Source: an uncultured Planctomycetaceae bacterium
GTDB lineage: Bacteria; Planctomycetota; Planctomycetia; Planctomycetales; Planctomycetaceae
Assembly (NCBI GenBank): GCA_903858815.1
Contig: CAIOKE010000331.1
Coordinates: forward strand, 1 to 64,000
Reading direction: 5' to 3'
Length of the DNA: 64,000 bases
Shown piece by piece: positions 55,974 to 58,065 of this stretch. Made by a program: the position numbers and the translations under genes. Numbering within the stretch: the stretch's first letter is position 1; every line of letters begins with the position of its first letter. A model generated the notes under the pieces. The model saw nothing but the letters and a program-made list of their open reading frames with translations. It did no database searches and was not told where the DNA came from.

Positions 55974-56504
55974 ATGAAGGAGTGGATCATCATTATGGCG
56001 GCAGCCAACCGTGCCGGAATTCTGGCCGCGGTGACTCGCGCGATCACAGAGCTCAGGGGTGATCTGCGTGAGGCCAGCCAGACGGTGGTGCGGGGCCATT
56101 TCACGATGATTTTTTCGGCTGAGTTTCCGGGAACACTTGAGCAATCGATCATTCGGGATCATCTGCAGGACGCGTGTCGTCCTTTTGGCATCGAGCTGGT
56201 GCTGCGTGAGCAGGATGCAGCCGCTGCGGCTCCGGCCCAGTATGCTCCGGGGACCACGCATTTCCGTCTGCGGCTGGGTGGTCGGAACGAACCGGGCGTG
56301 CTTCGTCGGCTCAGCCAGATTATGGCTCGCCACAGTGTTGACATTACGGGGATGCATGCAGAGCGGTCTGAGGACGGTCAATCCTTTGAGATGATCCAGA
56401 GGCTGGCGTTACCGGCGGGTGTTGATCCGCTGCTGTTGCAGCAGGAAGTGGAAGCGGCCGGACAGGACTTCGGGGTGACGGCTGATCTGCGAGCGGCGGA
56501 CTAG
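55974..56504 (+). CDS. Two-ACT-domain protein, GcvR-like
   Basis: This 176-aa protein starts MKEWIIIMAAANRAGILAAVTRAITELRGDLREA, an ACT domain like that of the glycine-cleavage regulator GcvR. A second ACT domain is HFRLRLGGRNEPGVLRRLSQIMARHSVDITGMHAER. ACT pairs bind small ligands, usually amino acids; GcvR acts by protein-protein contact. The ATG has AAGGGGATCG before it. Only 3 bp separate its stop from the H-protein gene, and the ferredoxin follows, so the three form an operon. No GcvA-type DNA-binding regulator is nearby, and a sensor role in this operon is my inference. Confidence 0.85.
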   Translation: MKEWIIIMAAANRAGILAAVTRAITELRGDLREASQTVVRGHFTMIFSAEFPGTLEQSIIRDHLQDACRPFGIELVLREQDAAAAAPAQYAPGTTHFRLRLGGRNEPGVLRRLSQIMARHSVDITGMHAERSEDGQSFEMIQRLALPAGVDPLLLQQEVEAAGQDFGVTADLRAAD

Positions 56505-56507
56505 GCG

Positions 56508-56966
56508 ATGCAGCAGCCATTTGTATTCATGATGGGCCAGTACGAGGCTCAGATGCCGGCTGACCGGCTGTATTCCAGAAGGCATTTGTGGCTGCAGCCC
56601 TGTGGTCCGGACGTTTACCGGGTGGGTTTCACGGCCTATTCGGTGCGACTGCTGCAGGACGTGTATTTCCTTGAGTGGTCAATTGACGAGGGTGCGGTCG
56701 TTCGTGACCGTCAGGAGATTGGTGAAATCGAAAGTGCCAAAGCGGTCTCATCGATGTTTCCGCCGTCGGCCGGAACGGTGCTGCGTTTCAATCCGCAGTT
56801 GCTGCGGGATCCTGCGGGGATCAACGCGGACAATTATGGTGCGGGTTGGCTGTATGAGTTTCTGCCGGAGGGCGAGCTGTTAACAGCCGAGCAGTATCTG
56901 CAGTATCTGCAGACAGCGTGGGAAGAGGCGCAGCGGACAATCAAGGGTCAGATCAACGAGGGCTGA
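56508..56966 (+). CDS. GcvH-like lipoyl carrier protein
   Basis: This 152-aa protein has the H-protein fold: HLWLQPCGPDVYRVGFTAYSVRLLQDVYFLEW, then the lipoylation loop GEIESAKAVSSMFPPSAGTV with Lys78, and the late NADNYGAGWLYEF. The classical protein has ESVKA(A/S), so it should carry a lipoyl arm. H-proteins shuttle aminomethyl groups in glycine cleavage, but no T, P or L protein gene is here. Classic H-proteins have ASD(V/L)YAP, where this one has VSSMFPP. It may work with the adjacent ferredoxin instead. Confidence 0.88.
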   Translation: MQQPFVFMMGQYEAQMPADRLYSRRHLWLQPCGPDVYRVGFTAYSVRLLQDVYFLEWSIDEGAVVRDRQEIGEIESAKAVSSMFPPSAGTVLRFNPQLLRDPAGINADNYGAGWLYEFLPEGELLTAEQYLQYLQTAWEEAQRTIKGQINEG

Positions 56967-56991
56967 TCTCAGAACGGGGTGCAGATCGGGC

Positions 56992-58065
56992 ATGTCAGCA
57001 ACTACTACAAGCACATTGACGGTTGTGATTTCGCAGGCTCAGGGCCGTAATCCGACGAAGCGTCGTCTGGAGGAAGAAATTGCTCAGACGCTGCTGGCGG
57101 AGCCTGGCATCAGTGTGACTCTGGTTCCGCATCTTTACGATATGCCTCAGAATCATTCGGGCCTGCAGTTTCTGCGGGAGGTACGGGGTGATCTGGTGGT
57201 GCTGGGCTGGCTTTATGAGCGTGCAATTCGCTGGACGCTGGACCGCGCTGGTATTCGCGGACGGCTGGCGGAAACTCTGCTGCAGGCGGCGGATGAGGCG
57301 GACCAGTCGGATGATGATGATGAATCTGAAGCAGGCTCGGACAGTCAGCAGGCTGCCGGTATAGGCAGTGTGGATATACCGGATCGGGACCTGTGGTGCA
57401 TCGATTTTCGTGCTTCTGAGCAGTGTCAGGATTTCGTCAGCGAGATTCGTCGTCTGCGCGACAGTGTGCAGTCAACGTCAGCTGCCGGTTTTGATTTGTT
57501 GTCATGGATTGGTGGCAATCCTTCGGCTGAGCAGCTGCAGCGTTATCTGCAGCCGGCGCGACAGCTGGAAGCGCGGCGGAATTTCGATGGTGGAGCCGCG
57601 ACGCTGGATGACAAGGCTGTGCTGCCGGAAGACACTGGTCGTCGCTGGTATCCGGTGATTGACTACAGCCGCTGCACGAACTGTATGGAGTGCATCGACT
57701 TCTGTCTGTTCGGCGTCTACGGCGTGGATGCTCTGGATCGCATTCTGGTTGAGCAGCAGGACAGTTGCAAGAAGGGCTGTCCCGCGTGCAGTCGCGTGTG
57801 TCCGGCGAATGCCATCATTTTCCCGCACCATAAAACAGCGGCGATTGCCGGTGCTGACGGTGAAGTCGGCGGACTCAAGATCGATCTCACCCGACTGTTT
57901 GGCGGGGATGAGGGTGAGAGTGCGCTGGAAATGGCGGTTAAAGAGCGGGATCGCGAACTGATCCTTGATGGGCGTGATGCTGTGGGCATGAGCGTAGGGA
58001 TCCGTCAGCGACATCGGGAACAGATGGATCAGCTGCTGGCCGATCTGGACGCGCTGCAGTTCTGA
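56992..58065 (+). CDS. Two-cluster ferredoxin-domain protein
   Basis: This 357-aa protein has an N-terminal Rossmann-like segment (LTVVISQAQGRNPTKRRLEEEIAQTLL ... GDLVVLGWLYERAIRWTLDRAGIRG), followed by an acidic linker (residues 101-114). The C-terminal part is a ferredoxin with two [4Fe-4S] sets: Cys228, 231, 234, 238 (CTNCMECIDFC) and Cys259, 263, 266, 270 (CKKGCPACSRVC). The first set has standard spacing; the second has one extra residue after the first Cys. No transmembrane part is seen. It should transfer electrons; the partner could be the lipoyl arm of the upstream H-protein, through a dithiol/disulfide step. It is separated from that gene by 25 bp. Confidence 0.85.
   Translation: MSATTTSTLTVVISQAQGRNPTKRRLEEEIAQTLLAEPGISVTLVPHLYDMPQNHSGLQFLREVRGDLVVLGWLYERAIRWTLDRAGIRGRLAETLLQAADEADQSDDDDESEAGSDSQQAAGIGSVDIPDRDLWCIDFRASEQCQDFVSEIRRLRDSVQSTSAAGFDLLSWIGGNPSAEQLQRYLQPARQLEARRNFDGGAATLDDKAVLPEDTGRRWYPVIDYSRCTNCMECIDFCLFGVYGVDALDRILVEQQDSCKKGCPACSRVCPANAIIFPHHKTAAIAGADGEVGGLKIDLTRLFGGDEGESALEMAVKERDRELILDGRDAVGMSVGIRQRHREQMDQLLADLDALQF

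Follow-up and report, generated by a model that had tools for sequence, protein, structure and literature searches.

A predicted lipoyl H-protein homologue and a two-cluster ferredoxin linked to a terpenoid operon in Planctomycetota

LbpA is a GcvH homologue that acts outside glycine cleavage: it is an essential component of the sHdr system of sulfur oxidation and is encoded together with Fe-S redox proteins (PMC10332631). By analogy, sHdr-LbpA is the nearest precedent for the protein described here, an H-protein-like (H-like) member of the GCV_H family that is likewise encoded with an Fe-S redox protein and that probably works outside glycine cleavage. It lies in a stretch of 64,000 nucleotides from an uncultured Planctomycetaceae bacterium, the whole of which is called the window. 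In contrast to LbpA, the H-like protein has a radical SAM enzyme, a prenyl synthase and a cyclase as its partners, and the genome of the window encodes a standard LipA (contig C191), the one lipoylation gene searched for; dedicated sLpl(AB) and LipS1/LipS2 lipoylation genes mark the sHdr system. The first-pass annotation of this DNA had already named sHdr as a precedent. The comparison stands as an analogy but does not extend to HdrA, for which the window's genome gives no match at E ≤ 1e-30 (model NF040770). HdrA-like proteins do occur in some planctomycetes, and in six loci (L185-L190) their genes contain in-frame TGA codons. One of these codons, in L187, falls within the N-terminal CxC motif (VFVCHWG, with TGA read as W) and may encode selenocysteine.

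The hopanoid operons, with SHC and HpnH, resemble the system described below in that an enzyme of the class II cyclase family occurs together with a radical SAM enzyme. However, the cyclase of a relative scores 128.4 bits against a hopene-cyclase cut-off of 431.1, and the radical SAM enzyme of the window's genome scores 41 bits against the HpnH cut-off of 225. To our knowledge, hopanoid operons contain no H-like protein, G3E GTPase or DUF116-prenyl synthase.

Three open reading frames on the forward strand of the window form a tight group. The first (positions 55974-56504) encodes a two-ACT-domain protein, which the Pfam ACT model matches in two stretches with 53.5 bits. It is followed after 3 bp by the gene of the H-like protein (56508-56966; 152 residues), which scores 67.5 bits with Pfam GCV_H against a cut-off of 22.2. 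The third gene (56992-58065) starts 25 bp further on and encodes a 357-residue ferredoxin that joins a Rossmann-like N-domain to two predicted [4Fe-4S] clusters and is matched by the Pfam Fer4 dicluster models. The places, the gaps and the three protein identities agree with those given in the first-pass annotation. Its remark that no gcvT, gcvP or lpd is nearby also holds: none of the three is among the genes examined in the 51.7-62 kb interval of the window. Just upstream of the ACT gene and on the same strand lies a RidA/YjgF-like gene (PF14588; 55335-55853), and several loci of the same genus show this arrangement as well.

The H-like and ferredoxin genes are conserved as a pair. A relative of the H-like protein with at least 47% identity occurs in 38 of 392 sampled genomes, 37 of which also contain the ferredoxin, and the two genes lie within 5 kb of each other in 34 of these 37, so that the homologues are not scattered singly. 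A second count gives 65/68, but it is partly circular because it takes in H-like hits of distant families that were chosen for their proximity to the ferredoxin; the count of 34/37 is free of this circularity. In most planctomycete loci the H-like gene comes first and the ferredoxin gene second, and the gap between them is -60 to 200 bp in 109 of the 118 loci that have both, with a median of 50.

The ACT gene does not share this conservation. It adjoins the pair in 10 of the 16 same-genus loci that were read, and the ACT profile, run on loci from other genera, gave no hit. The co-occurrence check proposed with the original three-gene reading is therefore borne out for the H-like/ferredoxin pair and fails for the ACT gene, which is a genus-level, local addition and not a core member; the trio as a conserved unit is ruled out. 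Read as a self-contained system, the three genes would form a ferredoxin/lipoyl module gated by the ACT protein. We regard this as extremely improbable: the genes are tightly spaced in the window and the ACT gene adjoins the pair in over half of the same-genus loci, but it is absent elsewhere, and throughout the phylum the pair goes with a terpenoid operon.

The lysine predicted to carry the lipoyl group is Lys78, as the first-pass annotation had it. It lies in the sequence EIESAKA (codon at 56739-56741, forward strand) and is invariant in all 135 rows of the H-like alignment, one row of which is a canonical protein. Compared with GcvH, the H-like protein shares the GCV_H family and, within an ESAKA motif, the lysine predicted to be lipoylated. 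In contrast, it scores below the NCBIfam equivalog cut-offs for GcvH, with 80.6 bits against 117 for NF002270 and 69.1 bits against 115.85 for TIGR00527, and its neighbours are terpenoid genes rather than gcvT and gcvP. A tree built from planctomycete H-proteins, 29 of them H-like and 21 canonical, separates the H-like clade from canonical GcvH with 100/98 support. The genome of the window (6.39 Mb, 99% complete) also contains a stronger GCV_H match, a canonical gcvH on another contig (C154) beside the P-protein gene gcvPA. The earlier annotation had asked whether a gcvPT locus elsewhere is clearly served by the present H-protein; it is the canonical gcvH that adjoins gcvPA, and the clades are separate. 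The separate clade and the genome's own gcvH beside gcvPA suggest that the H-like protein is probably not glycine-cleavage equipment, and together with the NCBIfam cut-offs they rule out service in glycine cleavage as the main reading. A second H-protein for glycine cleavage, or a lipoyl relay for other complexes, that lies beside the ferredoxin by chance would fit the GCV_H fold and the intact lipoyl lysine. It is nevertheless very unlikely given the clade, the scores and the placement of gcvH, and because loci of 17 family labels show the H-like gene linked to the terpenoid operon.

The ferredoxin protein contains two sets of cysteines, C228/231/234/238 and C259/263/266/270. Both are kept in 175 of 177 alignment rows, and the two exceptions are the halves of one broken frame. 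The Rossmann-like N-terminus proposed earlier is recovered in the predicted model (residues 8-100 and 133-160) with a pLDDT of about 95, whereas the ferredoxin half is of low confidence. Foldseek searches with this model returned no match at E ≤ 0.001, and VIA-align returned only common Rossmann and receiver-type folds, with Z up to 9.5. In more distant families, a Cys-rich version of the N-domain is encoded by a separate gene of the operon; in the window's class the domain is fused to the ferredoxin and its cysteines are lost. Searches with the stand-alone N-domain against PDB, Pfam and NCBIfam gave nothing credible. Two de novo designed proteins that appeared in the PDB search (E about 5e-5) match in weak repeated stretches and were taken as chance.

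Seventeen stand-alone N-domains show the motif order CxC, C, ACxPR and NxR, as in HdrA, and the C-terminal domain of the ferredoxin protein, with its two predicted [4Fe-4S] clusters, matches HdrA weakly. However, the ferredoxin protein has no FAD domain and the window's copy has lost the N-domain cysteines. The profile link between the N-domain and HdrA is weak, with an hhalign score of 24.6; of 200 column shuffles, 2 scored higher. A distant kinship between the N-domain and that of HdrA is possible, judging from these motifs and profiles.

In many relatives, two further genes lie downstream of the pair: one for a protein resembling squalene-hopene cyclase and one in which DUF116 is fused to a polyprenyl diphosphate synthase. 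The fullest form of the operon has eight genes, in the order H-like protein, CobW/G3E GTPase, Cys-rich N-domain, ferredoxin, radical SAM enzyme, DUF116-polyprenyl-diphosphate synthase, alpha-alpha-toroid protein and class II (SHC-like) cyclase. The whole core set lies on one strand in 21 loci, which were picked for carrying the ferredoxin and which represent 17 other planctomycete family labels. The order is identical in 12 of the 21, and the other nine are truncated, lack a gene or show a swap. The enzymes retain the motifs of their families: the cyclase contains SQHop_cyclase domains (Pfam) and has the class II motif DxDDT in 67 of 68 sequences, including that of the window's genome; the first DDxxD of the prenyl synthase is kept in 50/50; and the radical SAM enzyme has CxxxCxxC in 28/28, along with further conserved cysteines. 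DUF116 found no match of note among PDB sequences. The first-pass annotation did not recognise the larger terpenoid operon of the pair, which also encodes the G3E GTPase, the radical SAM enzyme, the DUF116-prenyl synthase and the class II cyclase.

The composition of the operon varies. In L177, L182 and L183, the ferredoxin, the cyclase and the DUF116-prenyl synthase are kept and neither an H-like nor a CobW gene is found in the stretch that was read; because of these loci, the lipoyl protein may be dispensable in some forms. A B12-type radical SAM protein replaces the usual radical SAM enzyme in L177, L182, L183, L184 and L156, and that of L156 is nearest to the model TIGR04013. Cysteine desulfurases of the IscS/NifS/DndA type are encoded on the same strand, in the cluster or at its edge, in five families (L157:12421-13563, L180:11885-13039, L167:15549-16424, L170:15560-16756 and L173:16066-17538), and in two cases the gene is directly upstream of the H-like gene. 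Stand-alone, unfused DUF116 proteins (frames of about 155-170 residues) are present in family label f49, for example in G145 and G270; in the f49 genomes that have them, the ferredoxin protein has no strong match.

In the window's own genome, the radical SAM enzyme (contig C202), the CobW protein (C296) and the cyclase (C243), which adjoins a DUF116 gene that runs into the contig end, are on different contigs; there is also one squalene/phytoene synthase family protein (C218). The parts of the operon are thus spread over several contigs of this genome, and the window has the H-like/ferredoxin portion. This pair is a broken-off piece of the eight-gene terpenoid operon and, in this genome, is linked to the rest by orthology only.

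Co-occurrence across the 392 genomes is almost all-or-none. The ferredoxin (E ≤ 1e-17) is present in 95 genomes and the DUF116-prenyl synthase (counted as long frames) in 90; 88 genomes have both, and in 67 of these 88 the two lie within 10 kb. The radical SAM enzyme (at least 300 bits) is found in 85 genomes, 83 of which also contain the ferredoxin. Fisher p values of 2e-76 and 5e-69 for the two co-occurrences are not to be taken at face value, because the thresholds were chosen by eye and the sampled genomes are related to one another. Membership of the pair in the terpenoid pathway is well supported. The data show gene linkage, co-occurrence, motifs and separateness from GcvH directly, whereas lipoylation, cluster content, the direction of transfer, the partner enzyme, the product and the nature of what is carried, electrons or sulfur, are inferred.

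The H-like protein and the two-cluster ferredoxin may form a lipoyl/iron-sulfur redox arm of a planctomycete terpenoid pathway with radical SAM tailoring, a reading to which we assign roughly even chances. The prenyl synthase fused to DUF116 would make a polyprenyl diphosphate, the SHC-like cyclase would use its DxDDT motif for the protonation-driven cyclisation of a terpene, and the product would be modified by the radical SAM enzyme. Electrons of low potential would come from the ferredoxin and would most likely go to the radical SAM enzyme. For this step, the H-like protein would use its lipoyl dithiol to relay electrons (or to carry sulfur); the G3E GTPase could load a metal. A more specific and only tentative suggestion is a new role for protein-bound lipoate, in which a lipoyl protein and a ferredoxin dedicated to the task would power the radical SAM reaction on a cyclic terpenoid lipid found widely among Planctomycetota.

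The ferredoxin and the lipoyl protein might alternatively serve the upstream isoprenoid supply, for example by giving electrons to IspG/IspH or to a prenyl reductase, instead of the radical SAM step. The cluster is isoprenoid-related, and enzymes of the MEP pathway need low-potential electrons. However, the search for conserved cluster members turned up none that encodes IspG, IspH or a reductase, whereas the radical SAM enzyme is nearly always linked, which makes this alternative decidedly improbable. The lipoyl group could also handle sulfur instead of electrons: fed by a cysteine desulfurase, the H-like protein would carry or accept sulfur that the ferredoxin, radical SAM and DUF116 set then uses, either for tailoring of the terpenoid or for Fe-S assembly of the radical SAM enzyme. 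The desulfurases that lie within the cluster or border it, two of them immediately upstream of the H-like gene, favour this role, as does the essential part that LbpA has in sulfur oxidation by sHdr (PMC10332631). Against it, the desulfurases are of two types and most loci lack them, no desulfurase was found beside the window's pair, and the HdrA of sHdr is undetected in the window's genome. We consider the sulfur reading rather unlikely.

No description of the operon was found in the literature searched, which largely excludes subscription papers; this applies to DUF116 with lipoyl proteins, GcvH-like proteins with ferredoxin, planctomycete cyclase clusters and GcvH with terpene cyclases. On the redox-arm reading, the making of isoprenoid lipids would put lipoic acid and ferredoxin to a use not described before. 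This reading is directly testable, since in many complete genomes the H-like and ferredoxin genes stand side by side with those of the cyclase and the prenyl synthase.

Planctomycetota are known for unusual lipids. If the reading is correct, isoprenoid metabolism would join the few processes that use protein-bound lipoate, and DUF116, for which no relative was found among solved structures, would gain a genetic context. A novel cyclic terpenoid would then be predicted in many planctomycetes.
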